From Raineyella sp. LH-20 (GTDB lineage Bacteria > Actinomycetota > Actinomycetes > Propionibacteriales > Propionibacteriaceae): 64,000 bases of DNA. The stretch's first letter is position 1. Every line of letters begins with the position of its first letter. A program made the position numbers and the translations under genes. Under the pieces are notes generated by a model. That model was not told the DNA's origin. It was given only the letters and a program-made list of their open reading frames with translations, and made no database searches. Positions 6,938 through 29,438 of this stretch are shown here, in pieces. Location: assembly GCF_033110965.1 (NCBI RefSeq), contig NZ_CP137003.1:3100001-3164000 (forward strand), read 5' to 3'.

Positions 6938-6950
6938 GAGTGCACCTCAA

Positions 6951-8989: not shown

Positions 8990-9835
8990 TCAGGCCCGGG
9001 TGCGGAGGGTGTCCGCGATCGGCGCCGTCGGGTGTCCGATGAGCGCGGCGAGCTCGCCGGTGCGATCAGCGAGCTCCCCGGCGGCGATGGCGTCGTCGAC
9101 GGCCACCAGGAAGCCGACCAGACCGGAGTCCAGACCTGCCCCTTCGAGGGCCGCCGCCTTCTCCTCCGGTGACACCCGTACGGCGCTGACCTCGCGCTCG
9201 AGCACCGCCGCGAAATCCCCCGCCAGCTCGTCGAAGCTCCACGCGATGTCGCCCGTCAGGGTGTACGTACGCCCTGTCTCCTCGCCGGCCAGCACGACCG
9301 CCGCGGCCTCCGCGAGATCGCTGCGCGAGGCGCTCGCCACCCGACCGTCCCCGGCCGCGGTGAGAACCTGCCCCGTGTGGGCCGCAGCGTCGAGGTCGGC
9401 CAGGAAGTTCTCGTGGTACCACCCGTTGCGGAGGATGACATGAGGCAGGCCCGAGGCGCCCAAGTACTCCTCGGTCGCCTTGTGATCCGGCGCGACCGGA
9501 TTGATCGACGCATCCGCGCGTGGGGCGCTCGTGTAGACGACGCGGCCGACTCCGGCCTCCACGGCGGCGTCGACGACCGCCGCGTGCTGCGCCAGACGCT
9601 GTCCGACCGCCGTCCCGGAGATCAGCAGCATCGAGTCGACGCCGGCGAGGGCGGAGGCTTCGGGTCGGTCGTAGTCGAACTGCCGCACCTCGATGCCCCG
9701 GGCGACGAGGTCCGATGCCTTGGCGGTGTCACGGACGAGGGCGACCACCTCGTCGGTGGGCGTGCCACGGTCGATGAGGTGGTCGATGACGAGGCCGCCG
9801 AGGTGGCCGGTGGCGCCGGTGACTGCGAGGGTCAT
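8990..9835 (-). CDS. NmrA/QorB-like NAD(P)H-dependent quinone oxidoreductase
   Basis: A 281-residue atypical short-chain dehydrogenase. N-terminal TGATGHLGG is the nucleotide-binding glycine motif; RVVYTSAPRAD and HVILRNGWYHENF are typical of the YtfG/QorB branch of the NmrA family, which reduces quinones with NADPH. It is divergent from a HxlR-type regulator, the arrangement known for qorA-type genes and their QorR regulator, so redox or quinone-stress control is likely. The exact substrate is not known. Confidence 0.8.
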   Translation of the reverse strand: MTLAVTGATGHLGGLVIDHLIDRGTPTDEVVALVRDTAKASDLVARGIEVRQFDYDRPEASALAGVDSMLLISGTAVGQRLAQHAAVVDAAVEAGVGRVVYTSAPRADASINPVAPDHKATEEYLGASGLPHVILRNGWYHENFLADLDAAAHTGQVLTAAGDGRVASASRSDLAEAAAVVLAGEETGRTYTLTGDIAWSFDELAGDFAAVLEREVSAVRVSPEEKAAALEGAGLDSGLVGFLVAVDDAIAAGELADRTGELAALIGHPTAPIADTLRTRA

Positions 9836-14192: not shown

Positions 14193-15598
14193 TGGACCTC
14201 CCGGGAGAACAGCGCCAGCTGCGTGGGCGGGCCGGCCTCGGGGTCGACGGCGCCGACCGTACGGAACTCCACCCGGTAGCCCCGACGCCCGGCGACCCCG
14301 TCGGCCCAGGCGGCGAACTCCGCCCGCGTCCACTCGAACCGGTGATCGGGGTGACGCCGGCTGCCGTCCGCCAGACCGTAGACCGGGTTGTAGTCCCGAT
14401 TCGGGGTGGTCACCACGACATGGGCGGGACGGGCGGCGCCGAACACACCGGCCTCCAGCGACTCGATCCGGTCCGGCTCCAGGTGCTCGACCACCTCCAC
14501 CAGGAGGATGGCATCGAAGCCGGCCAACTGATCGTCCCGGTAGGTCACCGACGACTGTCGCAGGGTGATCTTCTCGCGCTGGTGGTCGGGGAGCCGGTCG
14601 AGGCCCAGCCGCCGTTCCGCGGCCGCCAGCACCCGGGGTGACACATCCACCCCGATCACCTCGGTGACGGCCGGATCGGCGAGCAACGCCCGCAGGTAAT
14701 AACCTTCGCCGCAGCCCAGGTCGACCACGCGCCGGGCACCGATCTCGCGGAGCAGGCCCAGCACCGTCTCCCGACGCTGCACCTTCAACGGGGCAACCGT
14801 CTCCTCCTCGGTGTCGTCCCCCGGCTCGTCGACCACGGAATCGTCCAGCGCCGCCAGCCGCACGGTGGCGGCCTCGACGTAGTCGCGGCGTGAGGCCAGG
14901 TAGCGCCGTACGATCAGCTCGCGCAGCGGATGGTCGGCCAGCCAGCCCTCGCCGCGGCGCACCAGCTTGGTGACCTCGTCCGACCCCACCCAGTAGTGCT
15001 TGGCGTTGTCCAGCACCGGCAGCAACACGTACAGGTGGGACAGCGCATCCGCCAGCCGCACCGACCCGGTCAAGGTCAGATCGACATACGGTGCCGGCCC
15101 CCAGCTACCGTCCGGTCCGAACGGAGCCTCCAGCGCCCGGACGTGCCAGCCCAGCGGCTCGAACAATTGCTGCACCAGCTGCGTGCCCGTCAGCGGATCA
15201 CCGTCCGTCGTCGCGCGGGCCGGGACGTACGGGACGCGGATCTCCAGCGGCAGGGGCGAGGCAGCCAGCTCGGGGAAGGAGTCGCAGCGCCCGTTCATCG
15301 CCGTGGTGAAGACCCTGCCCAGCGCGACGGCGAGCATGGAGGCCGCGGCGTACGGGCGATCGGTGACGTAGTCGGTCAGCGCCAGACCCTCGCGTGACGT
15401 CAGTCGCCGTTTCACCATCCCGATCGGATCGACCTCCAACAGCAGCGCGGCCGTGACCCGCTCCGCGGAGGACTCCGGATAGAACACCGTCGCCTCGCCG
15501 ACCGGCAGCGCGAAGGTCTGCACCCGGTCGGGATGCTTGTGCAGCAGGTGGCCGAGCGCCGGAGCGTCCGGGCCCGTCAACGACAGAGTCACCAGCAC
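14189..15598 (-). CDS. hen1: Hen1 3'-terminal RNA ribose 2'-O-methyltransferase
   Basis: A 469-residue protein. The N-terminal half (about 1-240) is the Hen1-specific domain that activates Pnkp ligase. The C-terminal half is a SAM methyltransferase with VVDLGCGEGYYL, the metal-site sequence EVVEHLEPDR, and VVTTPNRDYNPVY. It adds a 2'-O-methyl to the cut RNA end so that the repaired site resists the same toxin. GTG start; the stop overlaps the Pnkp start by 4 bp, so the two are coupled. Confidence 0.95.
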   Translation of the reverse strand: MLVTLSLTGPDAPALGHLLHKHPDRVQTFALPVGEATVFYPESSAERVTAALLLEVDPIGMVKRRLTSREGLALTDYVTDRPYAAASMLAVALGRVFTTAMNGRCDSFPELAASPLPLEIRVPYVPARATTDGDPLTGTQLVQQLFEPLGWHVRALEAPFGPDGSWGPAPYVDLTLTGSVRLADALSHLYVLLPVLDNAKHYWVGSDEVTKLVRRGEGWLADHPLRELIVRRYLASRRDYVEAATVRLAALDDSVVDEPGDDTEEETVAPLKVQRRETVLGLLREIGARRVVDLGCGEGYYLRALLADPAVTEVIGVDVSPRVLAAAERRLGLDRLPDHQREKITLRQSSVTYRDDQLAGFDAILLVEVVEHLEPDRIESLEAGVFGAARPAHVVVTTPNRDYNPVYGLADGSRRHPDHRFEWTRAEFAAWADGVAGRRGYRVEFRTVGAVDPEAGPPTQLALFSREVQ

Positions 15599-15627
15599 GC
15601 GCTGAATCTAGCAGCGGCCGGACGGTC

Positions 15628-16584
15628 TCACGCCTGGTTTCGCGCGCCACCGACCAGCGGGAGATCAGGGCGAGGGAGCCATTCGTCGCTCCGCCGGGCG
15701 ATGTCGAAGAGCGCCCGGGCGGCGGGTGATGGGTCTCCCCCGGTACGCCAGGAGACCCCGATCTCACGGATGGCGCTCTTCTCCGCAATGGGGATCTCGA
15801 CGACGTCCGGGAACGGCTGGTGGGCCGGCGGCAGGATGGCGACGCCGAGGCCGACCGCGACGAGGCCGCGCACCGTGTAGGCGTCTTCGCCCTCGAAGCC
15901 CCGCTCGGGTTCGACGCCGGCGGTCCTGAGGATCGAGTCGACCTGGCCGCGGAGTCCGAACTCAGGACGCATCTGGAGCATGCGCTCGCCGGCCAGCTGG
16001 CGCAGCCGAACGCGCTTGCGGTGGGCGAGGGGATGCGACAGCGGCACGGCCAGGACCAGGGGCTCGTCATACAGCCGGACGGTCTCGGTGTCGCGCCCTC
16101 CGGCATAGGGCGGCGAGACGAGCACGATGTCTGCTTCGCCGGCCTCCAGCATCTCGACGCAGAGTTCGTGCGGCCGCTGGTGCAGTTGGAAGCGTGTGCT
16201 GGGACGGACGTCGAGGACGGCTCTCAGCAGCGCCGGGACGACGGTTCGCCCCAGGGTGTTCTGGAAGGCGACCGAGGCGGTGTCCGCCCGCTCGGCAGCG
16301 CGCTTGCTCACGACGTCGGTGCCGGCGGTGACGGCATCAAGCGCTCGGCGTGCGTACGGAAGGAGCTCGCGGGCTTCCGCGGACAGCTCGACACCGCGCC
16401 CGTCGCGCGTCAGCATCGAGGCCCCGACCGTACGCGCCAGCCGTGCGAGTCCCCTGCTGACGGTCGGTTGGGGAACGCGGAGTTCATCGGCGGCCGCGGT
16501 GACACCGCCGGACTCTGCCACTGCGACGAGGTAGGGCAAGTCGGCGAGCACGTCCCGCAGGTCGGTCGTCGTCAGTTCATTCAT
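15628..16584 (-). CDS. LysR-family transcriptional regulator
   Basis: A 318-residue regulator. The N-terminal winged helix (LPYLVAVAESGGVTAAADELRVPQPTVSRGLARLAR) is followed by a LysR effector domain. The ATG at 16584 was chosen; the frame is open for nine more codons. Divergent from an MFS transporter with a 53-bp gap containing the direct repeat CGTATG, so it probably controls that exporter. Confidence 0.9.
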   Translation of the reverse strand: MNELTTTDLRDVLADLPYLVAVAESGGVTAAADELRVPQPTVSRGLARLARTVGASMLTRDGRGVELSAEARELLPYARRALDAVTAGTDVVSKRAAERADTASVAFQNTLGRTVVPALLRAVLDVRPSTRFQLHQRPHELCVEMLEAGEADIVLVSPPYAGGRDTETVRLYDEPLVLAVPLSHPLAHRKRVRLRQLAGERMLQMRPEFGLRGQVDSILRTAGVEPERGFEGEDAYTVRGLVAVGLGVAILPPAHQPFPDVVEIPIAEKSAIREIGVSWRTGGDPSPAARALFDIARRSDEWLPRPDLPLVGGARNQA

Positions 16585-16637
16585 GCCACTATCGTATGGG
16601 AGTGATCTCACGTATGCATTAGTGCTATGAGCGTCCG

Positions 16638-17912
16638 GTGCCTACCGTCGTACAGGTGACAACAACAGATAGCATCACCACGTGGGAGGGGCACCTCCGC
16701 GAGTCACCCGAATACCTTCGCATCCTGATGGCACTGGCATGTGCGGGAGTGGCGACGTTCGGACAGCTCTACTCACCGCAGGGCATCCTCCCCGAGATCG
16801 CCACCGCTCTCCACGTCAGCCCTGACCGGTCCGCCTTGCTCGTCTCCGCAGCAACGATCGGACTCGCGATCGGCGTACTGCCGTGGTCGTGGTTCGCCGA
16901 CCGTGTCGGGCGACTTCAAGCGATGAGATTCTCGTTGATCGCCGCGACGGTCTTCGGCATCGCCGTGGTCCTGTGCCCGACCTTCACCGGGATCCTCATC
17001 CTCCGCGTCTTGGAGGGCATCGCCCTCGGCGGCCTCCCCGCGCTGGCGTTGACCTATCTCCAGGAGGAGATCCACCCGGCGCACACCGCGGCGGCAGCCG
17101 GAACGTACGTGGCCGGGACCTCGGTCGGCGGACTGATCGGGCGCATCATCGCCGCCCCCGTGACCGCATGGCTCGGATGGCGGTGGGGGGTCGGACTCGT
17201 CGTCGTTCTCGCGGCCCTGGCATCCACCGGATTCATCCTGCTCACACCGAAGGCCCGCGGCTTCCAGCGCGCCGCCGCGAGCGAGCGCGGGTCACTTGCC
17301 CGGATCATCTGGACGAACCTCCGGACCCCGGCGCTGCTCGTGCTCTTCGGCCAGGGCTTCCTGCTCATGGGCGGCTTCGTCACCATCTACAACTACCTCG
17401 CGTTCCGCCTGCAGGACGCCCCGTTCAACCTCTCGACGACCGCCACGTCGCTGCTGTTCCTCGCCTATCTCGCCGGCACGTGGTCGTCACGTCAGGCAGG
17501 CCGGGCCGCAGGCACGCATGGCAGACTCCGGGTGCTGCTCGTCGCGATCGCGGTGATGATTCTCGGCAGTCTGCTCACGCTGATCCCCTCCATTCCGTTC
17601 GTACTCGCCGGGCTCGTCACGCTCACCATCGGCTTCTTCGGAGCGCACTCCATCGCTTCGGGGTGGACCGCTGCGCGCGCGACCATCGGGCGGGCACAAG
17701 CGACCTCGCTCTACAACCTCTTCTACTACCTCGGCTCGAGCATCGTCGGATGGCTCGGGGGCTACGTCTTCACCGGTCTCGGCTGGGACGCCACCGCTCT
17801 GACCGTCGCGGGTCTCGCCGTCGTCGCTGCAGTATGGGCCGCCGTGGCAGCGGGGACCGGCACGCGCGCACCGCGTCGAGATGCAGTACGTCAGCGTGCC
17901 GTACGTCAGTGA
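16638..17912 (+). CDS. MFS transporter (YnfM-like)
   Basis: A 424-residue protein with about 12 membrane helices. The MFS motif between helices 2 and 3 reads WFADRVGRLQAM, and YSPQGILPEIA near the N terminus is typical of the YnfM/arabinose-efflux-like drug exporter branch. Start is uncertain: GTG at 16638 or at 16656. Divergent from the LysR gene; substrate unknown. Confidence 0.85.
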   Translation: MPTVVQVTTTDSITTWEGHLRESPEYLRILMALACAGVATFGQLYSPQGILPEIATALHVSPDRSALLVSAATIGLAIGVLPWSWFADRVGRLQAMRFSLIAATVFGIAVVLCPTFTGILILRVLEGIALGGLPALALTYLQEEIHPAHTAAAAGTYVAGTSVGGLIGRIIAAPVTAWLGWRWGVGLVVVLAALASTGFILLTPKARGFQRAAASERGSLARIIWTNLRTPALLVLFGQGFLLMGGFVTIYNYLAFRLQDAPFNLSTTATSLLFLAYLAGTWSSRQAGRAAGTHGRLRVLLVAIAVMILGSLLTLIPSIPFVLAGLVTLTIGFFGAHSIASGWTAARATIGRAQATSLYNLFYYLGSSIVGWLGGYVFTGLGWDATALTVAGLAVVAAVWAAVAAGTGTRAPRRDAVRQRAVRQ

Positions 17913-18010
17913 ACTGCCATCGATGGGCCGGCCGTCGATCGGTCCGCCCGGATGTCGAACTCAGGGATGCGCGCCGACCGTCTGCTCATCGGACTGATCG
18001 CGGGTGGCCG

Positions 18011-18298
18011 TCAGGCCGACGCCAACGTCGTACGGCCCGGCGTTCCCGTCGCGGAGACGTGACGGAGGTCGGCCCAGAGCTCATCCAGCGACAACCCCAG
18101 CACATCGGCGATCGCCGCGATGGTGGGGAAGGACGGTGTGGCCACCCGCCCGGACTCGATCTTCCGCAGCGTCTCGGGGGAAATGCCCGCCTCCAGGGCG
18201 ACATCCAGGATCGTACGGTCGCCTCGCGCGTGACGCAGCAGCGCGCCGAGCTGCTCGCCGCGCTGGATGTCCTCCGGCGTGAGGGGAAGTCTGACCAT
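18011..18298 (-). CDS. XRE-family HTH regulator paired with methionine aminopeptidase
   Basis: A 95-residue protein consisting of one XRE helix-turn-helix (LGALLRHARGDRTILDVALEAGISPETLRKIESG) and a short C-terminal tail. Its ATG lies only 9 bp from an AT-rich -10-like sequence, so the mRNA may be leaderless. It is divergent from map, with a perfect 8-bp inverted repeat between the two, which it probably binds. Confidence 0.85.
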   Translation of the reverse strand: MVRLPLTPEDIQRGEQLGALLRHARGDRTILDVALEAGISPETLRKIESGRVATPSFPTIAAIADVLGLSLDELWADLRHVSATGTPGRTTLASA

Positions 18299-18311
18299 GT
18301 GCCCGATTCTA

Positions 18312-18335
18312 ATACCGGTGTAGTTTGACCGGTAT
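18312..18335. promoter_or_regulatory. Perfect inverted-repeat operator between XRE gene and map
   Basis: ATACCGGT (18312-18319) and ACCGGTAT (18328-18335), an 8-bp perfect inverted repeat with 8-bp spacer. It overlaps a TATAAC -10 candidate for map (18332-18337) and the -10 region of the divergent XRE gene, so one bound dimer could repress both. Confidence 0.7.
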
Positions 18336-18361
18336 AACTATTGGGACTGAAAGGGGTCACC

Positions 18362-19135
18362 GTGATCGAGATACTCACCACCGACGAGCTCGCCCGCGCC
18401 AGGCAGACCGGGCGCCTCGTCGGCACCATCCTCCAGACCCTCAAGGCCCGGTGCGCGGTCGGCACCAACCTGCTGGAGATCGATCAATGGACGCACGAGA
18501 TGATCCTCCGTGCCGGCGCCACCTCCTGCTACATCGACTACGCGCCCTCTTTCGGGCGGGGGCCGTTCGGGCACTACATCTGCACCTCGGTCAACGACGC
18601 GGTGCTGCACGGCCTGCCGTACGATCACCGGCTCACCGACGGCGACTTGTTGACTCTCGATCTCGCGGTGGTCAAGAACGGTGTCGCCGCGGACGCCGCG
18701 ATCAGTTTCATCGTCGGCAACGCGCGCCGGGATGAGGATGTGGCGATGATCGCCGCGACCGAGCGTGCGCTGGCCGCAGGCATCCGCGCCGCCGCGCCGG
18801 GCGCCCGCATCGGCGACATCTCGCATGCGATCGAGCGCGTACTCTCCGCGGCCGGATATGCGATCAATCGCGAGTTCGGCGGTCACGGCATCGGCTCCAC
18901 CATGCATCAGGACCCCCATGTGGCCAACGCGGGCCGCCCCGGGCGTGGATACACGCTCCGTCCGGGGCTTCTCCTGGCCCTCGAACCATGGGTGATGGCC
19001 GACACCGACGAACTCGTCACCGACCCCGACGGCTGGACCCTCCGCAGCGCCACCGGACGTCGGACCGCGCACAGCGAGCACACCATCGCGATCACCGAGA
19101 CCGGCGCGGAGATCCTGACCCTCCCGACCGCGTGA
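18362..19135 (+). CDS. map: Type I methionine aminopeptidase
   Basis: A 257-residue metallopeptidase that removes initiator methionine. The ligand set of the family is visible: TLDLAVVKNG with the first Asp pair (D-x10-D), GHGIG with the histidine, and the Glu residues in LALEPW and SEHTIAI. GTG start at 18362, preceded by AAAGGGG. It sits beside a dedicated XRE regulator in an accessory region, away from the ribosomal operon where housekeeping map is usually found, so it is probably a second copy with a specialised role; this is inference. Confidence 0.88.
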   Translation: MIEILTTDELARARQTGRLVGTILQTLKARCAVGTNLLEIDQWTHEMILRAGATSCYIDYAPSFGRGPFGHYICTSVNDAVLHGLPYDHRLTDGDLLTLDLAVVKNGVAADAAISFIVGNARRDEDVAMIAATERALAAGIRAAAPGARIGDISHAIERVLSAAGYAINREFGGHGIGSTMHQDPHVANAGRPGRGYTLRPGLLLALEPWVMADTDELVTDPDGWTLRSATGRRTAHSEHTIAITETGAEILTLPTA

Positions 19136-19173
19136 GTGGTCCTCCCAGCATGGGAACCGACTCGTGACCCGGG

Positions 19174-19225
19174 TGTTCAAAATTACCATCCGTTCAGATA
19201 TATTGAACATGTGAGTCTTTTGAAC
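19174..19225. promoter_or_regulatory. AbiEi operator/promoter with four TTGAAC-type half-sites
   Basis: TGTTCAA (19174-19180) and TTGAACA (19203-19209) form a perfect 7-bp inverted repeat. Further half-sites are GTTCA (19192-19196) and TTGAAC (19220-19225). A -10-like TATATT (19199-19204) lies six bases before the GTG, so transcription is probably leaderless and repressed by AbiEi binding, as known for AbiE systems. Confidence 0.6.
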
Positions 19226-20233
19226 TACCAAGGCGACGTGTTGGCGCATCGCGTCCAGCAGGGGTTGGCGCGCGCCGGGATGAAGGACATCACGGTCTTG
19301 TCTGTGCAGCCCGCCAGCGGACGCCGCCTCATCCTGCGCTACGGGCCACTCATGTACCGACTCCATGTTCACCCCGTCGAGCGCCGGCTTCGCGCACCCG
19401 CTGAAGAGCCCGGGTGGCTCCCGCTTCTTGTGAGCACCCGCGTCGACGAGGCTACGGCGGACGAGTTGGCCGAAGCACACGTCAGCTTCCTCGATGACCT
19501 CGGCAACGCACACGTGTCGCTGGACGGGCGCACTGTCCTGTTCACGCGCCGCAATGAGCCGGGAGGTCCCGACGTGCGCGACACGCCAGCGACCCCGCCT
19601 ACAGCCAAACGGGCCGCGGGAGCGCTGGCCCTGAACCGCGCCAGCCATCGCGTGGCCTTCGCCCTCTTGGCTGATCCCGAACTGGCCGCCCGCCCGGTCC
19701 GCGCGCTGGCCGCAACCGCCAGAGTGTCGGTCGGCACCGTCCACAACACCGTTGTTCAGCTCACCGAAGCCGGGCACCTGCTGGACGGGAGACTTCACCA
19801 CGCCGGCCGCCTGCTCGACGCCTGGGCTGACGCCTACCGCAGAGTGACCATCCGCCCCCTCGCGCCCCGCGCTCTGTATGCACCCGACGGGACCTGGCCC
19901 GACAAGACGCGGCTCGAACCCACAAGCGGGGTCCTCCTTGGCGGGATCGCCGCGGCAGCCGTCCTGGACAGCCACGTCCGCGCCACTGACGGCATCGTCT
20001 ATGCCCCAACTCTCGGGCCCGCCGTGACGCTGTTGCGACTCACGCCCACGCCCACGGCGTTCCGCGTCGAGGTGCGGCAGCGCTTCTGGGGGGATGCCCT
20101 GCCCTCCTCCCAGCCCGGAGTGGTGCCCTCGGTGCTGATCTACGGCGACCTGCTCCGCGACGGCGACGCCCGTTCCCTCCATATCGCCGCTGACCTCAGG
20201 AAGAACGATGCGCACCTTCGCACCCTTGACTGA
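19211..20233 (+). CDS. Type IV toxin-antitoxin AbiEi-family antitoxin
   Basis: A 340-residue protein. The N-terminal part resembles a PD-(D/E)xK-like or DUF domain of this family. A central winged helix (RPVRALAATARVSVGTVHNTVVQL, about residues 165-190) and the C-terminal ending SVLIYGDLLRDGDARSLHIA are typical of actinobacterial AbiEi antitoxins. GTG start at 19211, probably leaderless. It overlaps the nucleotidyltransferase gene by 26 bp. In studied AbiE systems AbiEi neutralises the toxin and represses the operon. Confidence 0.75.
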   Translation: MSLLNYQGDVLAHRVQQGLARAGMKDITVLSVQPASGRRLILRYGPLMYRLHVHPVERRLRAPAEEPGWLPLLVSTRVDEATADELAEAHVSFLDDLGNAHVSLDGRTVLFTRRNEPGGPDVRDTPATPPTAKRAAGALALNRASHRVAFALLADPELAARPVRALAATARVSVGTVHNTVVQLTEAGHLLDGRLHHAGRLLDAWADAYRRVTIRPLAPRALYAPDGTWPDKTRLEPTSGVLLGGIAAAAVLDSHVRATDGIVYAPTLGPAVTLLRLTPTPTAFRVEVRQRFWGDALPSSQPGVVPSVLIYGDLLRDGDARSLHIAADLRKNDAHLRTLD

Positions 20234-21011
20234 CAGCGACCTTCCCGTCCCGGGCGAACTGTTGGACACCCTCGCCGACGCCCTCGGTGCCTCCGGCCGG
20301 TGGGTGCTCATCGGCGCGACCGCAAGGGATCTCATGCTCATCCTCGGTGGAGTCTCCCTGCCCCGCCGTGCAACGAACGACGTCGACATCGCCGTCGCCG
20401 CCCACGACGCTTCCGACTTCGACACGACGCTGGCGAGGCTGGGCGAACCCACCCGGGCGTGGCAACGCCGCCGACTCTTGGGCCAGCAGGTGGACGTGGT
20501 GCCTTTCGGTGACGTGGAAAGCGACGGCGACGTCGTCATCCACGAGTCCAGCCTCACCGTGCTCGGCTGCGCTGAGGCAGCCGAGCACGCGGACCTCCTC
20601 ACTCTGCCGTCCAGGAGACTGCTGCCCGTTGCGCCCCTCGAACTCATCGCCGTGCTGAAGCTGATTGCGTTCAACGGCCGCCAGCCTGCCGAGACCAAGG
20701 ACGCCGACGATCTCGTCACTGTGCTGCGCGCATCCTCACAGGGCGTCTACGGCGACGAGACCTGGGACGACGAACTCGCCCTGGCGGCTACCGACTTCGA
20801 CCATGAATTGGCCGGCGCCTACCGACTCGGACGTCGAGCCATCACTTGCTTCAGCCCCGATCGCGCCGAGCAAGTCCTCCAGGTGGCGATGAAGGCTCAG
20901 TCTGCCCTGCGGCTGGCCTGGCGGGGAGCCTACGACGAACTCCTGGAGGCATGGCTGGCCGGACTCCGAGTAGAGGGTCGACCCAGCGCGGTCAGAGGGA
21001 GGCCAAGGTGA
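20208..21011 (+). CDS. AbiEii-type nucleotidyltransferase toxin
   Basis: A 267-residue protein of the DNA polymerase beta-like nucleotidyltransferase superfamily. LIGATARD (about 34-41) corresponds to the GS/T-x-x-RD motif, and TNDVDIAV (56-63) is the catalytic DxD strand; a third acidic strand lies near VDVVPFGD. MenA/AbiEii toxins transfer nucleotides to tRNA ends or otherwise arrest growth. Translationally coupled to the upstream antitoxin gene. It ends 70 bp before a decayed recombinase gene. Confidence 0.75.
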   Translation: MRTFAPLTDSDLPVPGELLDTLADALGASGRWVLIGATARDLMLILGGVSLPRRATNDVDIAVAAHDASDFDTTLARLGEPTRAWQRRRLLGQQVDVVPFGDVESDGDVVIHESSLTVLGCAEAAEHADLLTLPSRRLLPVAPLELIAVLKLIAFNGRQPAETKDADDLVTVLRASSQGVYGDETWDDELALAATDFDHELAGAYRLGRRAITCFSPDRAEQVLQVAMKAQSALRLAWRGAYDELLEAWLAGLRVEGRPSAVRGRPR

Positions 21012-21084
21012 TCGGCGCCGGATGCGCGACCTACACATCCTTAACCAGCCTCCGACAAGGAAATTCATTGGTCGGGGTGCTGGG

Positions 21085-21472
21085 AAGCAGCCAGCAGGCG
21101 CGTCAGACGACTGAACTCATCGGGCTGCTCAGCGATGCGCGGGAGTCGAGCAGGGTTGTCGATGGCCGCCCGCTCCCGCGGCAGCAGGCAGTCAATCGGG
21201 CGGTCGTGGCGCTGCTCTAGAGGACTTCAAGGCTGGCGTATCACCCTACGAGTTGGCTAAGCGGTACAACCAGCAGCGCAACACGGTGCGAGCTGTGCTG
21301 CGCCGACAGACCTCGACACCAGCGCCGGAGGGAAGCCAGCACTGCTGACCGATGCCGACAAGGTCAATATCCGAGCGCAGTATGCCGCTGGGAAACCCAG
21401 CGGGAGCTTGCGACGACGTCTGGGGCAAGCGTGTCGACGATCCGGCGAGCGCTGCAGGCGGACCGCAAGTGA
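21085..21472 (+). pseudogene. Decayed recombinase-like double-HTH gene, copy A
   Basis: Fragments read in three different frames: ...QQAVNRAVVALL, stop at 21218, then EDFKAGVSPYELAKRYN QQRNTVRAVLRR from 21220, stop at 21346, then LLTDADKVNIRAQYAAG, then ELATTSGASVSTIRRAL to a stop at 21470. Joined, they form two helix-turn-helix units like the C terminus of serine-recombinase/Hin-type proteins. At least three frameshifts make it non-functional. It is homologous to copy B at 22844. Confidence 0.75.
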
Positions 21473-21535
21473 AGTGACGCGCCGCTTCCTGTCGGATCGG
21501 CGGAGCAACGATCGCATATTCGTTCCACATCCTGT

Positions 21536-22687
21536 CTATATCTCCGCGCTTTGACCGAATGGACGGTAGAGGCCGGAACAGTGCGCCAGACAGAAATCGC
21601 AACTCACGTCCATGCCCGGCTTGAACTCGGGTCCAAGTGCGCTCTCGAGATCCGCAAGATTGACTGTTTGACTATGGATGCGGGCGTCGGGCATCGCGGG
21701 CTTGCCGACAAGGCTGATCTCGTTCAGATCGCCTTGGTCGATGATGGAGACGACGCCGGCGCGGTAAAGCTGAGTCGGCACATGCTCGCAGCGTTCGCGG
21801 GTCAGACAGACACGGCACCAGCCGAGGTCGGCTGTGCCGCCCGGGACGAGGTAGTCGCGTCCGGGGACGTGTTCACACTCAGACAAGTCCTGCCCGCACA
21901 GCGAACACGTCCTGTGTGCCCGCCCGCCGATGCTGAGCCCGACGCGCGTGTGAGCGAGCCTCACTGGGCACGTCAGAGAGTAGGTCCGCCCCTCGCGGGC
22001 AAGTCGGCAGCCGAAAGTCTCCCGGACCCAGCGACCGGCCAGATCGAGAGCTGCGTGAGTGTCAGATTCCGACGGGCCGTCCTCGGCCCAGTCGAGTGCT
22101 GATCGGAGGCGTTCCAGGGCGCTGCGGGCATGCGATTCTGCATCCTGCCCATCAGCCTTCAGCGATAGGGCCGCTTCGCCGATTAGCGCCTTCCCCTCGA
22201 GGGTGAGCCGCTTGATCATGCGGGCGACGTGTGCGCTCGGCGTCGGCATGCTGGACGCCGTGGTTTCGGATTGTTCGGTGCGGTGTGTCGATGAGATGGC
22301 CTCGACCTGAGGCGCAGGGCTTCGGTAGAGTTCATGCACTCGGATATCGACCTTGTTGTGTGCTTGGCGGAACTTGGTAATGATCGCCTTGCAGCTTTCC
22401 CAGATTGCTGTACCAGCCAGCCCCGTGCCGATGTTGATCGCGACGTTGATGACGATGTCAGCAAGGTCAGCGCTCTTCCTGACCTCGAAGGTGCGAGACT
22501 CTGATGGGTCCAAGAAGTCGACCCGCAGACCGGCCTCTCGCAAGGCTTTCGCAAGTGCGATCGAATGGCTGTCGTACTCACCCGCCTCGCCGTCAGTACG
22601 TCTGGTGGGCAGAACGACCATATCCGCGTCCAACTCAGCGGCCGCACGCAGGTCTACAGCCAGTCGCCCATCCGGTGACTCTGACAT
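21536..22687 (-). CDS. Orphan cysteine-rich protein of unknown function
   Basis: A 383-residue protein I do not recognise. The N-terminal third (MVVLPTRRTDGEAGEYDSHSIALAKALREAGLRVDF is split by strands and helices) looks like a small alpha/beta nucleotide- or phosphate-binding fold. It is followed by a hydrophobic segment (IVINVAINIGTGLAGTAI). The C-terminal third holds paired cysteines (CSLCGQDLSEC, CRVCLTRERC, CDFCLAHC), suggesting zinc ribbons. GGGGGAGG seven bases before the ATG fixes the start. GC is lower than in neighbours, and it lies between two decayed recombinase copies, so it was probably acquired. A defence role is possible but unproven. Confidence 0.6.
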   Translation of the reverse strand: MSESPDGRLAVDLRAAAELDADMVVLPTRRTDGEAGEYDSHSIALAKALREAGLRVDFLDPSESRTFEVRKSADLADIVINVAINIGTGLAGTAIWESCKAIITKFRQAHNKVDIRVHELYRSPAPQVEAISSTHRTEQSETTASSMPTPSAHVARMIKRLTLEGKALIGEAALSLKADGQDAESHARSALERLRSALDWAEDGPSESDTHAALDLAGRWVRETFGCRLAREGRTYSLTCPVRLAHTRVGLSIGGRAHRTCSLCGQDLSECEHVPGRDYLVPGGTADLGWCRVCLTRERCEHVPTQLYRAGVVSIIDQGDLNEISLVGKPAMPDARIHSQTVNLADLESALGPEFKPGMDVSCDFCLAHCSGLYRPFGQSAEI

Positions 22688-22843
22688 CAAGGACCTCCCC
22701 CTCATGGCCGCAGGCGTGCACGACCGGCTCCACCGCCACAACGGTAAGCCTCGGAGCGAACCAGCGCACGGCGCTCCCATCTGAACCTCGTCTGCACAAC
22801 AGTCACGAGATCTCACTGAGCTGACACCCCACTGATCCCCTGA

Positions 22844-23047
22844 ACCAGACGCAACACGGTGCGGGCCGTCCTGCGCCGCGATGGCCTCGCCACCGGCGCC
22901 GGAGTCAATCGGTCGCTGTTGAGCGAGACTGATAAGGCTGAGATCCGCAAGCAGCGCGCGGCTGGTGTGAGTCCGCGTCAACTCGCGACCGCCTACGGCC
23001 TGGGCGTGTGGACTATCCGGCGCGTCTCCAAGGCTCGTCGCGGGTGA
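22844..23047 (+). pseudogene. Recombinase-like double-HTH gene fragment, copy B
   Basis: An in-frame remnant RRNTVRAVLRR ... LLSETDKAEIRKQRAAG ... RQLATAYGLGVWTIRRVSKARRG. Its 5' end is cut by an in-frame stop at 22841, and it has no ribosome site. Protein and DNA resemble copy A (14 identical bases CGCAACACGGTGCG at 21277 and 22850). Probably the 3' third of the same type of recombinase gene. Confidence 0.7.
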
Positions 23048-23371
23048 CGCTGCCGTGTCTCCCCAAACGTCCATCCCCGAAGCGGTCATCGAGGTCGGTC
23101 AAGCCTTGCGCTTCAAGGCGACTCTACTAGCCATCTACCTAGCGCGCTGGTCGTGAAGTCCGCAACAGACCATCGAGTCTGTAACAAGGCAGACCAGATC
23201 AGTCCTAAACACGGTAGCCCGCTTCGCGGAGCGCCGCTCGAACGGCGCCAGGCTCCGGAGGCAACGAATGACTCGAACCTACGCACCGCAGGTTCGAGCC
23301 ATTCCGATGTCCTGAGACATCACATCGTGGCGGGGGCAGTGTGTGATTTCAGGACATCCCGGACGATGTGT
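23048..23371. other. Non-coding stretch left of the IS element with strong inverted repeats
   Basis: No convincing gene. It holds a 15-bp stem with one mismatch (23266-23280 with 23290-23304, 9-nt loop) and two interleaved inverted repeats (23306-23314 with 23349-23357; 23322-23328 with 23362-23368). The latter block, GATGTCCTGAGACATCA, looks like a terminal repeat of an IS481-type element, perhaps a solo remnant. Confidence 0.45.
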
Positions 23372-23398
23372 CTGAACCGCCCCGGCATGTCCGGAGAC
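23372..23398 (+). repeat. IS3 left terminal inverted repeat
   Basis: A 27-bp sequence exactly complementary to the right end. Confidence 0.93.
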
Positions 23399-23423
23399 TC
23401 CGAACCTTGGGAAGGTTGGAGTC

Positions 23424-23750
23424 ATGGCAGGGAACACGTCGAAGAGGTATCCGGCTGAGCTGAAGGCCAGGGCGGTGAGGATGTATGCCGAGATCAGGCC
23501 GGATCAGGACACCGATTGGGGTGCGATGGCCCGGGTCGCGGAGCTGCTGGGGATCTCCACGGCCGAGACGGTGCGTAAGTGGGTGCGGCAGGCCGAGGTC
23601 GACCAGGGCGCCCGGCCGGGGGTCACGTCGGAGGAGTCGGCCGAGGTCAAGCGGTTGAAGCGGGAGAACGCCGAGTTGCGGCGGGCGAACGCGATCCTGA
23701 AGGCGGCGTCGGCTTTCTTCGCGGCCGAGCTCGACCGGCCCGGGCAGTGA
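23424..23750 (+). CDS. IS3-family transposase OrfA
   Basis: A 108-residue DNA-binding subunit. A helix-turn-helix (RVAELLGISTAETVRKWVRQAE) is followed by a leucine-zipper-like helix (VKRLKRENAELRRANAILKAASAFF). It is expressed alone or, by -1 frameshifting near its 3' end, as the OrfAB transposase. The frame ends at 23750, overlapping the OrfB GTG by 4 bp. Confidence 0.93.
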   Translation: MAGNTSKRYPAELKARAVRMYAEIRPDQDTDWGAMARVAELLGISTAETVRKWVRQAEVDQGARPGVTSEESAEVKRLKRENAELRRANAILKAASAFFAAELDRPGQ

Positions 23751-24682
23751 TCGTGGACTTCATCCGCGAGCACGCCGACCACCAGCCCGCCACCGGTGGG
23801 TTGCGATGGGGGGTAGAGCCGATCTGTGCCGTGTTGTCCGAGCATGGTGTGAAGATCGCCCCGTCGACCTACTACGAGTGGCGCGACCGGCTGCCCTCCA
23901 AGCGCGAGCAGCGCGACGAGGTGCTGCTGGCACATATCCGGCGGATCCATGCCGACAACTTCGGGGTGTACGGACCCCGCAAGGTGTGGCTGGCGCTGAA
24001 CCGGGAAGGCATACCCGTCGCCCGCTGCACCATCGAGCGGCTGATGCGCCAGGCGGGGCTGGCCGGGGTGGTCCGCGGCAAGGTGAAACGGACAACGATC
24101 GCCGGGATCGGGCCCAAGCCGGCCGACCTGGTGAATCGCAACTTCGAGCCGCTCGCGCCGAACCGGTTGTGGGTCGCCGACTTCACCTACGTGTCGACCT
24201 GGGCCGGCTGGACCTACGTGGCGTTCGTCGTCGACGCCTACGCCCGCCGGATTATCGGCTGGCGGGCCGCTACCACGATGACCGCCGACCTCGTCCTCGA
24301 CGCGGTCGAGCAGGCCATCTGGGTGCGTGAGCGGGAGGACCGTGCCGACTTCACCGCCCTGGTCGCCCACCACGACCACGGCAGCCAATACCTCTCCCTG
24401 GCCCACAGCCAACGCCTCGCCGACGCCGGCATCACCCCCTCAGCCGGCGCCGTCGGATCGAGCTACGACAACGCCCTGGCCGAGAGCATCAACGGGATGT
24501 ACAAGACCGAGGTCATTCGCCGGCAGGGACCCTGGAGGGACGTGAACGCCGTCGAGATCGCCACCGCAAAGTGGGTCGACTGGTACAACCACCGCCGCCT
24601 CAACGAGTACTGCGGAGACATGCCACCGGTCGTTCTCGAGCAGGCCCACTACGCTCAACAACAACCCTCAGCAGCAAGCTGA
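23747..24682 (+). CDS. IS3-family transposase OrfB (DDE integrase)
   Basis: A 311-residue catalytic part. The HTH_21 segment (HADNFGVYGPRKVWLALN) is followed by an rve/DDE integrase core: Asp in VADFTYV, Asp in HHDHGSQY, Glu in ESINGMYKTE. The GTG at 23747 overlaps the orfA stop (GTGA). The frame is also open upstream into orfA in -1 register, so the fusion OrfAB can be made by slippage around CTTTCTTC (23713-23720). No inactivating lesion is seen. Confidence 0.93.
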   Translation: MIVDFIREHADHQPATGGLRWGVEPICAVLSEHGVKIAPSTYYEWRDRLPSKREQRDEVLLAHIRRIHADNFGVYGPRKVWLALNREGIPVARCTIERLMRQAGLAGVVRGKVKRTTIAGIGPKPADLVNRNFEPLAPNRLWVADFTYVSTWAGWTYVAFVVDAYARRIIGWRAATTMTADLVLDAVEQAIWVREREDRADFTALVAHHDHGSQYLSLAHSQRLADAGITPSAGAVGSSYDNALAESINGMYKTEVIRRQGPWRDVNAVEIATAKWVDWYNHRRLNEYCGDMPPVVLEQAHYAQQQPSAAS

Positions 24683-24697
24683 GGAGTCAAACCAGCG

Positions 24698-24724
24698 AGT
24701 CTCCGGACATGCCGGGGCGGTTCA
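24698..24724 (+). repeat. IS3 right terminal inverted repeat
   Basis: Exact reverse complement of the left 27-bp end; finishes 5 bp before the lexA SOS box. Confidence 0.93.
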
Positions 24725-24729
24725 CACCC

Positions 24730-24745
24730 TCGAACAGGTGTTTGA
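24730..24745. promoter_or_regulatory. LexA-binding SOS box of lexA
   Basis: TCGAACAGGTGTTTGA matches the actinobacterial/Bacillus-type SOS box TCGAAC-N4-GTTCGA with one deviation (GTTTGA). It lies 32 bp upstream of the lexA ATG, as expected for autoregulation. Confidence 0.85.
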
Positions 24746-24776
24746 TTGGGGGATTCGTTCGCGATAACGTGGCCGC

Positions 24777-25604
24777 ATGGCCGATGGACCGGACGACACC
24801 ACGACTCCCCGGCGGGGTCGCCCCCGCACCAGCACCGTCGAGGCGCAGGTCCGAGCGGCGCGCCGGGCTCAGCAGCAGGGCCTGACCGAGCGCCGCGACC
24901 ACCGCCACACACCGCCGGTTCCGGAGCGCCGGGAGCTGACCCCGCGCCAGCAGCTGATCCTCGACATCATCCGGGCCACCGTCGAGGACCGCGGCTATCC
25001 TCCGACGGTCCGGGAGCTGGGTGACGCCGCCGGGCTGTCCAGTCCGTCGAGCGTGTCGCATCAGCTGAAGGTGCTGGAGGAGAAGGGCTACATCCGCCGC
25101 GATCCGAATCGCCCCCGGGCAATGGAAGTCGTGGTCCCCGACCAGGACAGCTCGGCGCCGGCGGCATCCTCCCGGCCCGCTGCCGAGGTCGCACCGTTCG
25201 ATCCCACCGGCCTGCACGACGCGCTGCCGTCGGCGGTCAATGTCCCGGTCGTCGGTAGGATCGCCGCCGGAGTGCCGATCACCGCCGAGGAACACATCGA
25301 GGACGTCTTCGCCCTACCGAAGCAGTTGGTGGGTGAGGGGAACGTCTTCATGCTTGAGGTGCGCGGCGATTCCATGATCGACGCGGCCATCTGTGACGGC
25401 GACTGGGTCGTGGTGCGCCAGCAGCCGGACGCGGTGAACGGCGACATCGTCGCCGCGATGCTGGACGACGAGGCCACCGTGAAGACGTTCAAGCGAACCG
25501 CCGACAAGGTCTGGCTGATGCCGCACAACAGCGCGTACGAGCCGATCGACGGCACCCACGCAACGGTCCTCGGCAAGGTCGTCGCGGTCCTCCGTCGGGT
25601 CTGA
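24777..25604 (+). CDS. lexA: SOS repressor LexA
   Basis: A 275-residue repressor-protease. The winged-helix DNA-binding domain is at about 54-118 ([28 protein letters not shown]). The self-cleavage bond is Ala164-Gly165 in RIAAGVPI, catalytic Ser199 is in RGDSM, and Lys236 is in DEATVKTF. About 50 extra charged N-terminal residues are unusual compared with typical ~220-240 aa actinobacterial LexA; a later start is possible but no good alternative is seen. Its promoter region has been cut by the IS element just upstream of the SOS box. Confidence 0.96.
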
Positions 25605-25620
25605 CCGCTGTCCCGACGCC

Positions 25621-25666
25621 CGAGGTCCTCCCGGCGTCACCGCCACGGCTTGCCAGGAGGACCTCG
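25621..25666. terminator. Inverted repeat downstream of lexA
   Basis: CGAGGTCCTCC (25621-25631) and GGAGGACCTCG (25656-25666), a perfect 11-bp stem with a 24-nt loop, between the convergent lexA and dinG genes. Probable bidirectional terminator. Confidence 0.55.
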
Positions 25667-25769
25667 CCCGGCAGCGGGACCTCACCTGACAACAGGACTC
25701 ACCTGACAGCAGAACAGTTCCTGACAACCGACCAGGGCCGGCAGGAGGAAGCTCTCCCACGCCGGAGGC

Positions 25770-27926
25770 TCAGACCCCCCGGGTGTCCCCCTTCTCGGTG
25801 TCGTGCTGCTCGGTGTCCTCCTGCTGGGTGTCGTCCTGTTCGGCGTCCGCCGCGAGCCGCTGGAGCGCCCGGACCGCCACGTCGGAATCGGTCGTGGTCC
25901 ACATCGATGGCAGCGAGGCCCTCAGGAAGCTGCCGTAGCGGGCGGTGACGATCCGTGGGTCGAGTAGTGCGACCATGCCTCGGTCAGTGGTCCGACGGAT
26001 CAGTCGGCCGGCGCCCTGGGCCAGCAGCAGCGCGGCATGCGTGGCGGCCACCGCCATGAACCCGTTGCCACCGTGCTGCTCGACCTCCTGCTGGCGGGCC
26101 TGCATCAGCGGTTCGTCGGGACGAGGAAAAGGGATCTTGTCGATGATCACCAAACGACAGGTGTCCCCCGGCACGTCGACGCCCTGCCACAGCGACAGCG
26201 TCCCGAACAAGCTGGTCTGCGGCTCGGTGACGAACCGACGGGTGAGCTCGGCCAGATGAGCGTCGCCCTGCAGCAGGATCTCCATTGCGGGCAGCTCGTT
26301 GCGGACATGCTCGGCGGCCGCCTGCGCGGCACGCTGGGAGGAGAACAGCCCCAGGGTGTGCCCGCCGGCCGCCCAGACCAGCTGGGCGATCTCGCCCAGC
26401 ACGGCCGGATCCGTGCCGTCCCGCCCGGGGCGCGGAAGATCCCGGGCGAGGTAGAGGATCCCCTGCTTGCGGTAGTCGAAGGGCGAGCCGACGTCGAGCG
26501 CCCGCCACGGCAGCACGCCCTCCATCGCCGCGGTGAAGCCGGCGCCCATCACCTCGTCCGCCGACGGTCCGCGGTCGGCCGACGGTTCGTTGCCATCGAC
26601 CAGCTCCGCGGCGCGCAGGCCGAACGAGCCGGCCACCTTGGTGAAGCCGCCGCCGACCTTCAGGGTCGCGGAGGTGAACACCGCCGTACGGTCCGAGAGG
26701 ATCGAGCCGCGCATCAGCCCGGCCACGGACAGCGGAGCGGCGCGCAGCTCGCGGCCGGAACGTTCCCGGTCGATCACCCAGACGACGTCCCCGTCCGCCG
26801 GAGTGGCCATCCGCTCGGCCACCTCGAACACCTCCTGGAGGGCCGCCTGCGCCTGGCGCCGCTCGTTGCTGTCCGCGTCCTTGCCGTCCTTGCCTTTGCC
26901 GAGTTGGGAGACACCGTCGCGGGCCAGGTCGCGGACCTGCGCGAGCGCGGTCAGCAGCGCGGACTCCCCCGGCTCCACCCGGGCCAGCGCCGCGCCGTCG
27001 AGGGCGGTTCCCAGCGACTCCCCGGCGTCCATCAGGTCCAACGCGGTGTCGTCGTCCATCCAGGCCATCGCCCGCTTGGCGACCCGCTCCACGATCTGCG
27101 AGCTGAGTTCCGCCGAGGCCGCCCCGGTCACCCGGGAAACAAGCTCGTGCGCCTCGTCGATGATGACCGCCGAATGCTCCGGGAGCACCGACCCCTCCTG
27201 CATGGCGTCGATCGCCAACATCGCGTGATTGGTCACCACCAGATCCGCAGCGCGGGCCCGCTCCCGCGACTTCTCCACGAAACACTCCGCCCCGAACGGG
27301 CAGCGCTGCGCGCCCAAGCACTCCCGCGACGAGATCGACACCTGGGCCCAGCCGCGGGCGGTGTGAGTCGGGGCTTCGTCACGGTCGGCGAGTCGGTCGC
27401 GCTCTGCCTGGTCCTCGGCCCACTCGCGCAATGCCAGGACCTCCGCGCCGAGGACGGAGACCTCGTCGGCCCCCGAGTCACGGATCTGGTCGGCGACGTC
27501 TGCGCCACCGAAGAGCCCCTGCTGCTCCACCGCCCCGTTCCCCCGCACCCGCAACAGACAGGCGTAGTTCGTCCGGCCCTTCAGGACGGCGGACCGTACG
27601 CGCTTGCCGGCCACCTTCTCCATCGCAGCCAGCGCGTGCGGGATGTCACTGTCGGCCAGCTGCGCCTGGAGCGCCAGTGTGGCGGTCGCGATGACGACCC
27701 GGTCGTCCGGATGGGCGGCGAGATGGGCCAGCACCGGCGCGAGGTAGCCCAGCGACTTGCCGGTGCCGGTGCCCGCCTGGACCAGCAGGTGCTCCCGACC
27801 GGCGAGGCACTCGGCGATCGCCCGCGCCATCGCCTGCTGCCCCGGACGGGGGCTGCCGCCGATCACGCCGACCGACGCCTCAAGGAGGTCGTCGGCGGTC
27901 ACCGTGGGCGCGTTCTGGGATGGCAC
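25770..27926 (-). CDS. dinG: ATP-dependent DNA helicase DinG
   Basis: A 718-residue XPD/DinG-family superfamily 2 helicase. Walker A is AGTGTGKSLGY, the DEAH-type box is VIIDEAHEL, and the iron-sulfur cysteine cluster is represented by NYACLLR and CLGAQRCPFGAEC. It unwinds DNA 5'-3', including D- and R-loops and G-quadruplexes. The last 20 residues are an acidic DT/E-rich repeat tail. No SOS box is evident upstream. It is the last gene of the miaA-dapF-hflX-dinG series, 99 bp after hflX. Confidence 0.92.
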   Translation of the reverse strand: MPSQNAPTVTADDLLEASVGVIGGSPRPGQQAMARAIAECLAGREHLLVQAGTGTGKSLGYLAPVLAHLAAHPDDRVVIATATLALQAQLADSDIPHALAAMEKVAGKRVRSAVLKGRTNYACLLRVRGNGAVEQQGLFGGADVADQIRDSGADEVSVLGAEVLALREWAEDQAERDRLADRDEAPTHTARGWAQVSISSRECLGAQRCPFGAECFVEKSRERARAADLVVTNHAMLAIDAMQEGSVLPEHSAVIIDEAHELVSRVTGAASAELSSQIVERVAKRAMAWMDDDTALDLMDAGESLGTALDGAALARVEPGESALLTALAQVRDLARDGVSQLGKGKDGKDADSNERRQAQAALQEVFEVAERMATPADGDVVWVIDRERSGRELRAAPLSVAGLMRGSILSDRTAVFTSATLKVGGGFTKVAGSFGLRAAELVDGNEPSADRGPSADEVMGAGFTAAMEGVLPWRALDVGSPFDYRKQGILYLARDLPRPGRDGTDPAVLGEIAQLVWAAGGHTLGLFSSQRAAQAAAEHVRNELPAMEILLQGDAHLAELTRRFVTEPQTSLFGTLSLWQGVDVPGDTCRLVIIDKIPFPRPDEPLMQARQQEVEQHGGNGFMAVAATHAALLLAQGAGRLIRRTTDRGMVALLDPRIVTARYGSFLRASLPSMWTTTDSDVAVRALQRLAADAEQDDTQQEDTEQHDTEKGDTRGV

Positions 27927-28025
27927 CCGTCAACACTAGACGCTCCACCCGGCTCGGCCGGGACCGCGCGCGGAGCGGTCGCCCGGCCGGCGCCTCCGGC
28001 ACCGACGGAACGGTCGTCGCCGGGC

Positions 28026-29438
28026 TCACTCCTCCACGTACGCGCGGAACTCCCCCGCCAGGTCGGCGTTCACCAAGGCGACGATCCGGGTGCCTTCGGG
28101 GGTGAACTCCTGGGTGACGAACTCACCGTGCTGGTGCACCTTGTCGAGCAGGTCTCCCCGCGAGTACGGCACCAGGGCGCGGACCTCGATCTCCGGTCGG
28201 GGCAGCGCAGCCTCGACGGCCTCCCGGACCGCGTCCACGCCGACGCCGGTGCGGGCCGAGCAGAACAACGCCGATGGATAGGCGGTGGCCAACTCCAGCC
28301 GGGTGGTCGCATCGACCAGGTCCATCTTGTTGAAGACCAGCAGCTCCGGCACGTCGGTCGCCTCGATCTCGCCGAGTACCTGGCGCACCGCATCGACCTG
28401 GCCGGCCGGATCCGGATCGGCCCCGTCGACGACGTGGACCAGCAGGTCCGCCTGGGAGGACTCCTCGAGGGTCGACCGGAACGCCTCGATCAGCTCCGTC
28501 GGGAGGTGACGGACGAAGCCGACGGTGTCGGTCAGCGTGTAGATCCGGCCGTCGGCGGCCTCGGCACGCCGGGTGGTCGGGTCCAACGTCGCGAACAGGG
28601 CATCCTCGACCAGCACCCCCGCCCCGGTCAGCCGGTTCAGCAACGAGGACTTGCCGGCATTGGTGTAGCCGACGATCGCCACCGACGGGATCCGGTGACG
28701 GTGTCGCTCCGACCGCTTCGTCTCGCGAGTGACGTCCATGTCGCGCAACTTGCGCCGCAGGATCGCGATCCGGGTGTTGATCCGGCGACGATCCGTCTCG
28801 ATCTTCGTCTCACCGGGACCACGCCCACCGATGCCGGCACCGCCCGCGGCCTGACCACCGGCCTGCCGGGAGAGGTTGCCACCCCAGCCACGCAGGCGCT
28901 GCTTGCGGTACTGGAGCTGGGCCAGCTCGACCTGGGCCTTGCCCTCGGCGCTGCGGGCGTGCTGGGCGAAGATGTCGAGGATGAGGATCGTACGGTCGAC
29001 GACCTTGACCTTGATCTCGTCCTCCAGGTTGCGCAGCTGGGAGGCGGACAGCTCGCCGTCGCAGATCACCGTGTCGGCACCGGTCGCCTGGACCACCTCG
29101 CGCACCTCGGTGACCTTGCCCCGGCCGATGTAGGTCGCCGGATCGGGCTGCTTGCGACGCTGGATCAGGCCCTCCAGCACCTCGGAGCCGGCCGTCTCGG
29201 CGAGCATCTTGAGCTCGGTCATCGCGTTGTCCGCGTCGGCCTGGCTGCCGGTGGTCCACACGCTGACCAGCACGACCCGCTCCAGCCGCAGCTGGCGGTA
29301 CTCGACCTCGGTGATGTCCTGCAGGTCGGTGCGGATGCCCGCCACCCGGCGCAGCGACAGACGCTCGGCCAGCTCGAGCTGGTCGCCGTCGTACGCCTCC
29401 GGATCGTTGCCCTCGATGCCGATGAACTCGTCGGTCAT
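28026..29438 (-). CDS. hflX: Ribosome-associated GTPase HflX
   Basis: A 470-residue GTPase that splits stalled or hibernating ribosomes. The N-terminal HflX domain has RQLRLERVVLVSVW, ATYIGRGKVTEVREV and GADTVICDGELS. The G domain has GYTNAGKSS (G1), DTVGFVRHLP (G3) and NKMD (G4). The ATG at 29438 aligns well with where mycobacterial HflX begins relative to LRRVAG. However, the same frame stays open and codon-biased back to 29633, leaving the true start uncertain (see findings). Confidence 0.93.
   Translation of the reverse strand: MTDEFIGIEGNDPEAYDGDQLELAERLSLRRVAGIRTDLQDITEVEYRQLRLERVVLVSVWTTGSQADADNAMTELKMLAETAGSEVLEGLIQRRKQPDPATYIGRGKVTEVREVVQATGADTVICDGELSASQLRNLEDEIKVKVVDRTILILDIFAQHARSAEGKAQVELAQLQYRKQRLRGWGGNLSRQAGGQAAGGAGIGGRGPGETKIETDRRRINTRIAILRRKLRDMDVTRETKRSERHRHRIPSVAIVGYTNAGKSSLLNRLTGAGVLVEDALFATLDPTTRRAEAADGRIYTLTDTVGFVRHLPTELIEAFRSTLEESSQADLLVHVVDGADPDPAGQVDAVRQVLGEIEATDVPELLVFNKMDLVDATTRLELATAYPSALFCSARTGVGVDAVREAVEAALPRPEIEVRALVPYSRGDLLDKVHQHGEFVTQEFTPEGTRIVALVNADLAGEFRAYVEE

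Follow-up and report, generated by a model that had tools for sequence, protein, structure and literature searches.

The window, by which we mean the whole stretch of 64,000 nucleotides that was analysed, carries on its minus strand a gene for a protein of 383 amino acids, here called P0001, in which two parts designated A and B are joined. The gene and the features around it are as follows.

19136..21011, plus strand: AbiE-like pair, an AbiEi_2 antitoxin-like gene (Pfam AbiEi_2, 4.7e-16) and an adjoining gene
21277..21305, plus strand: left copy of an imperfect direct repeat of 29 nt, a remnant of a decayed recombinase
21536..22687, minus strand: fused A-B protein P0001, 383 aa, recognised by its open frame and homologues
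22694..22701, minus strand: Shine-Dalgarno-like GGGGGAGG, upstream of ATG 22687
22850..22878, plus strand: right copy of this 29-nt repeat; a resolvase-like HTH remnant comes after it
23370..24727, plus strand: IS3-type element with IS3-type transposase and 31-nt inverted repeats (23370-23400 and 24697-24727)

The gene and its surroundings

The frame of P0001 starts with the ATG at 22687 on the minus strand and is open for 383 codons to 21536, and the plus strand of 21536-22687 is closed because it contains seven stops. The frame also remains open 5' of this ATG up to 23089 (517 aa); comparison by eye with the starts of gene A in the relatives supports ATG 22687, or a position close by, as the true start. 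Since homologues with the same pattern exist and the B part shows an excess of third-position differences from its relative at locus L008 (88/74/143 at codon positions 1/2/3 over 228 codons), the frame goes beyond chance, and it is a genuine gene of the minus strand. The A part has an identity of 0.29 to the same relative, with 61/64/87 differences by codon position over 128 codons.

The sequence-only reading had described a well-formed gene with a strong ribosome site, surrounded by two decayed recombinase copies, an AbiE pair and an IS, with lower GC than its neighbours, and this description is confirmed. The direct repeats are 90% identical and lie one on each side of the gene, the right recombinase copy giving HTH matches only, all of them under cut-off. 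GC is 0.626 over 21500-22499 against about 0.66-0.73 across most of 14000-29000, and the IS belongs to the IS3 type. For the AbiE pair, the antitoxin half stands on its AbiEi_2 match; the adjoining gene has no Pfam family match, and PADLOC assigns no family to either of the two genes.

Synteny around lexA with two congeners begins at 24724, which is the right end of the IS3-type element. Because an nrdR-like gene that is near lexA in both congeners sits about 282 kb away in the genome of the window, the junction at 24724 is a rearrangement and an "empty site" is not definable. A few kb to the left of P0001, at 11688-15598 on the minus strand, lies a bacterial pair for RNA repair, Hen1 (Hen1_L, 4.4e-95) and Pnkp with a PNKP_ligase domain (3.1e-162).

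A rare two-gene module and its relatives

Neither Pfam nor NCBIfam had a family whose cut-off P0001 reached, and matches to LysR (NCBIfam, 0.0021), HGTP_anticodon and T4-Gluco-transf (Pfam) were far under their cut-offs; a housekeeping family, which would have spoken against an accessory gene, was thus not found in these two libraries. In PHROG it matched phrog_16951, a family of unknown function (2.4e-5). PADLOC 2.0.0 assigned no family to P0001, P0002, P0004, P0005 or P0006, and its sole match to P0003 (Cas5b, 1.2e-4) was taken as noise. No match was obtained to P0001, P0012 or P0008 in the plasmid collection or to P0001 in the phage collection, and no relative was found among viral contigs. 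Among PDB sequences P0001 was unmatched, and the family profiles gave nothing below E 0.05.

Relatives were few in every set of genomes searched. Five of the 391 genomes of the order matched, four of which are real (the own genome, G144, G117 and G355) and one (G025) was judged noise. In the class, three of 394 matched (the own genome and G423 real, G721 judged noise); in the phylum, three of 396, all real (own, G957 and G1061); and among 57 genomes of relatives, three, the own genome alone being real. None of the three congeners carries the gene, and searches around G957 (24 genomes) and G423 (three genomes) returned only the starting genome. The 84,980-species collection gave nothing with P0001 alone as query, and with an alignment as query it gave six loci out of 53 pattern stretches, from Ilumatobacteraceae, Propionibacteriaceae, Chloroflexi, Cellulosimicrobium, Arthrobacter and Ornithinimicrobium; the Propionibacteriaceae locus is a contig of G144, and both G144 proteins were found within it. 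L002 and L003 were set aside by eye as noise, the matches crossing other frames or genes, as was L020/L030, which has an internal stop and adjoins, rather than lies inside, a glutamine-synthetase-like gene; in the L030 match region the gene caller gives only a short doubtful frame. Twelve distinct loci were retained: the window, L008 (the same as L013), L009, L010, L012, L014, L015, L016, L017, L022, L028 and L029. The family is rare and mobile, has no housekeeping match and is patchy over two phyla, Actinomycetota and Chloroflexota, in agreement with the accessory character first proposed for the gene.

When aligned with its relatives, P0001 proves to join the products of two genes that form a module: A, which is small and alpha/beta, and B, which has a helical bundle and a zinc domain. 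This goes beyond the sequence-only reading, as does the kinship of the zinc part to phage head-maturation proteases described below. The parts of the protein are placed as follows.

22313..22687, minus strand: A part, a small alpha/beta domain covering aa 1 to about 125
22400..22465, minus strand: hydrophobic stretch of A with glycines, about aa 75-96, seen in the translation; helix predicted at low confidence
22019..22240, minus strand: three-helix bundle of B, aa 150-223, in an MIT-like arrangement of no proven meaning
21932..21934, minus strand: Ser252 in H-x-R-x-G-x-S-x-G, aligning with the invariant Ser of phage proteases
21869..21907, minus strand: zinc knuckle 1 (C261, C264, C271, H273), common to phage proteases
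21782..21817, minus strand: zinc knuckle 2 (C291, C294, C300, H302)
21677..21721, minus strand: EISLVGKPAMPDARI motif, common to phage proteases
21578..21601, minus strand: C-terminal cysteine cluster (C363, C366, C370)

In nine of the 11 loci outside the window, A is followed by B as a separate gene, with an overlap of 1-23 nt in eight loci and a gap of 92 nt in L029; the lengths are 151-176 aa for A and 198-357 aa for B. L017 has A followed by a frame-broken B spread over three frames, and L010 lacks A and has just a B-like zinc part whose N terminus is of another kind. The fusion was seen in the window only, among the 12 loci, and by eye about 15-20 residues present at the C-terminal end of the other aligned A proteins are missing from the window A. 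Distances among A proteins correlate with those among B proteins (r 0.816, computed on 10 pairs with L017 and L010 excluded), a value that none of 5000 label permutations reached and to which shared ancestry of the organisms adds, though the loci are scattered.

Genes of defence, restriction or toxin-antitoxin families were found nearby in seven of the 12 loci, as a raw count over chosen neighbours that were scanned; by this count the homologues often sit beside defence genes. AbiEi_2 of the window, as a toxin-antitoxin family, is counted among the seven. At L012, A is immediately preceded by type III genes, the methylase Mod (2.1e-126) and Res (2.1e-51); L014 has ApeA_NTD1 and HEPN_Apea (Cas13-ApeA, 1.2e-33) with a type IIG enzyme (7.7e-257); and L022 has a C5 methylase (2.3e-60) before A, and ArdA (9.7e-7). 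At L029, Multi_ubiq (6.5e-6) and ThiF/E1 (3.8e-26) lie on the other strand, 2-4 kb away. A single same-strand run at 3683-6232 of L028 contains ThsB_TIR (1e-5), 8xMP (4.7e-39), DUF7701 (6e-31), A and B, and has the appearance of a TIR defence operon not described before. At L010 a type I REase (6e-172) directly precedes and a UG13a reverse transcriptase (RT; 1.8e-115) directly follows the B-like gene.

The other five loci (L008, L009, L015, L016 and L017) have no clear defence family: an Hsp70-like gene is near L008, a relaxase near L015 and DUF5677 near L017, and a YhcG PDDEXK nuclease near L016 was left out of the defence count. Around 6131-10246 of L009, the A/B pair lies by a small ORF and other-strand genes that appear ATP-grasp-like and methyltransferase-like, surroundings resembling, by eye, a peptide-modification cluster.

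The zinc core of B and phage head-maturation proteases

Three C-terminal cysteine clusters had been noticed earlier in P0001, and all three are present, in a C terminus of zinc type. Along B the order H-x-R-x-G-x-S-x-G, then C-x2-C…C-x-H twice, then E-x-S-x-V-x2-P-x2-P-x-A-R is invariant in eight aligned rows, the window included, as are C363 and C370. In the H-x-R-x-G-x-S stretch of 10 B proteins, His and Ser are present in 10/10, Gly in 9/10 and Arg in 8/10; the L010 copy has neither the Ser strand nor the His six residues before Ser. The L029 copies have only one C-x2-C…C-x-H knuckle and, like the phage proteases, Y-x-G-x-x-C-like letters at the place of zinc knuckle 2. They are encoded by two tandem single-knuckle B genes at 11644-12923 of L029, nearer to the phage proteases in their Y-D-G-x-x-C stretch.

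Profile comparison shows, at the level of sequence, homology between the zinc core of B and the C-terminal half of the proteases that mature phage heads. With a profile of 10 B proteins, from which the window was left out (its domain is 62% identical to P0008), hhalign against the phage proteases gave a probability of 97.4 and a score of 87.1, over 66 columns only and with much of the score coming from cysteines; the maximum of 60 column shuffles was 17.0, and two controls scored 12.1 (A with the phage protease) and 11.9 (B with EACC1). The Ser strand, the CxxC…CxH knuckle and ExSxVxxPxxxA fall in register. The alignment begins at the Ser strand, and the protease half with the invariant His (H78 of the phage set) was not found in B. 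Family models agree: Peptidase_S78 matched three of nine members, P0008 being the best and the sole one to pass (22 bits against a cut-off of 21), phrog_80 (head maturation protease) matched three of nine (best 1e-5), and phrog_16951 five of nine (best 2.2e-7). P0001 itself had no Peptidase_S78 match.

One His and one Ser are invariant across the seven aligned phage proteins, which also share the cysteines of the knuckle and the motif ExSxV…P…A; we take that Ser to be the catalytic residue. A search of the phage collection with P0008 gave one weak place (E 0.3), in a gene lying by eye between portal-like and capsid-like genes. Among the relatives of this phage gene, the one in phage Cormatin is annotated "major head and protease protein" and separates the portal gene from the gene of the major head protein, and one in a Moorella phage follows a portal gene; all three genes whose surroundings were read sit in head gene clusters. 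No head genes adjoin B in the 12 loci, as judged by eye from gene lists of which the scanned neighbours are a subset. A "CxxC motif protein" with the layout of B is encoded at 1120-1983 of L044, from Halorubrum virus Humcor2, an archaeal pleolipovirus, beside a putative Rep gene.

The model of P0001 (12 rows) has a pLDDT of 59.7, with good local confidence in the three-helix bundle (150-223) and the beta zinc region (261-315). Of the two features earlier assigned to the N-terminal part, the alpha/beta fold is predicted, yet at low confidence. The glycine-containing hydrophobic stretch is indeed present, and its reading as a membrane or pore-like segment was not sustained, the models giving low-confidence elements there. 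The proposed sensor role of the N terminus is conjectural. The bundle matched MIT chains with Z 7.8-8.0 and rmsd 2.0-3.1 over 73-81 aligned residues, ranking below PtcA (Z 8.2) and below a bundle made by design (Z 9.1); the MIT-like match would thus be generic for helical bundles. Foldseek of the P0001 model against PDB and BFVD gave no E below 0.001 and no head protease among the matches listed. The model of A is poor (pLDDT 57.5), and no recognised fold was found for A by PDB profile search or by structure search of its model; its best Z to Cap2 chains, 3.3, was treated as meaningless.

Interpretation and comparison with known systems

The A + B module may well belong to the anti-phage defence of bacteria as a component not described before, a role that is plausible and unproved. 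Our main reading, to which we give a probability of about 0.45, is that P0001 is the one-chain form of a rare, horizontally spread A-B module having an anti-phage role, with phage-partner binding by B and signalling by A. B would bind a partner in phage morphogenesis (prohead protease, scaffold or capsid precursor) via its protease-related core, and the binding would sense phage assembly or jam it. A, a small alpha/beta protein with a hydrophobic stretch, would act as relay, either towards the membrane or towards an effector encoded nearby. Against the defence reading stand the five loci with no clear defence family, the failure of PADLOC to see the AbiE-like genes of the window, the other-strand position of the ubiquitin genes in L029, the shortened A of the window and the missing Ser strand of L010.

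The window copy may be impaired, since the end of A appears to be missing. That it is a decaying fusion, in which a deletion joined A to B and removed the end of A to leave passive cargo, is possible, if somewhat doubtful; it concerns the window copy and is compatible with a defence role for the family. The lost residues, a codon-position pattern against L008 that is weaker in A than in B, and the decayed recombinase copies on either side are consistent with decay, but 383 open codons, a good ribosome site and the preserved zinc ligands and motifs speak against it.

It seems improbable, though worth stating, that B is a captured zinc-bearing half of a phage head-maturation protease serving as a mimic which detects or blocks head assembly and is linked by A to effectors that can be exchanged (TIR/8xMP, HEPN, RT, restriction). 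If this is true, a host immune component has been built from a piece of a viral capsid-maturation enzyme, giving a direct handle on bacterial sensing of virion assembly; even otherwise, A + B is a two-gene family marking defence islands in Actinomycetota and Chloroflexota.

We regard it as unlikely that the module is a mobile-element accessory with no defence role, for example a zinc-knuckle binder of nucleic acid or protein for upkeep of the element. The relaxase by L015, short genes of excisionase look (by eye) near L012 and L022, and the B-like gene beside Rep in the archaeal virus point that way, but such elements overlap with defence islands, and tight runs on one strand (ThsB-TIR/8xMP; UG13a RT) point to something more specific than mobility in general.

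B is rather unlikely to be an active peptidase in which the His six residues before Ser replaces the lost protease half and which cleaves an effector or A: the His and Ser are invariant in the 10 B proteins, but relatives without that His or Ser (the L010 copy and the Halorubrum virus protein, both without that His) make such a role less likely, and a His six residues before the Ser is, to our knowledge, not the known protease geometry. The weak profile similarity of A to EACC1, which also favours a peptidase, gave a score of 22.8 with 11 rows (P 0.0043, hhalign probability 8%, maximum of 60 shuffles 18.9), but it was gone with a 5-row A alignment (12.0, under a shuffle maximum of 14.9). EACC1 (PF19953) matched none of nine A proteins and nothing in the own genome, and no caspase or cyclase family matched in the nine members scanned.

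The A + B family is unnamed in the curated libraries searched, save for the B protein P0008, which narrowly exceeds the threshold of Peptidase_S78. In the open literature, nothing related was found among the records listed on prohead protease with anti-phage and zinc, or on 8xMP, DUF7701 or octameric membrane protein; nothing was found on UG13 with reverse transcriptase, or joining TIR defense system, head maturation protease and zinc.

As far as the available part of its description goes, the EACC1 two-gene conflict system, in which a caspase partner is proposed to cleave an effector, has like our module a small 5' component with a hydrophobic Gly-bearing segment followed by a larger, often peptidase-bearing one, an order that parallels a small protein before a peptidase-like protein, and it is prevalent in actinobacteria (PMC7159879). 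The word "prohead" is absent from that part (PMC7159879). The module differs from EACC1 in that A is unmatched by the EACC1 Pfam model, its profile similarity is marginal and B has no caspase.

The Humcor2 protein (MW344764) resembles B, by eye, in a helical-looking part, SPG, CSICGED…CxH and EVSFVxxPxxxxARV, whereas it comes from an archaeal virus and has no second knuckle, no identified A gene and no His six residues before Ser. A small gene at L010 (in G355; 8531-9241 and 6576-8528 cover the gene and the UG13a RT that it directly precedes) has the second zinc knuckle and a VxxxPxxPDAR motif as B does, but its N terminus differs, the Ser strand and the first knuckle are absent, and no A gene accompanies it; it may be a partner of the RT. 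Compared with the phage head-maturation protease (Peptidase_S78/phrog_80), B has a helical bundle instead of the N-terminal half with the invariant His, usually carries a second CxxC…CxH knuckle and lies, by eye, outside head gene clusters, while it shares the S-x-G strand, CxxC…CxH, Y and ExSxVxxPxxxA in the same order.
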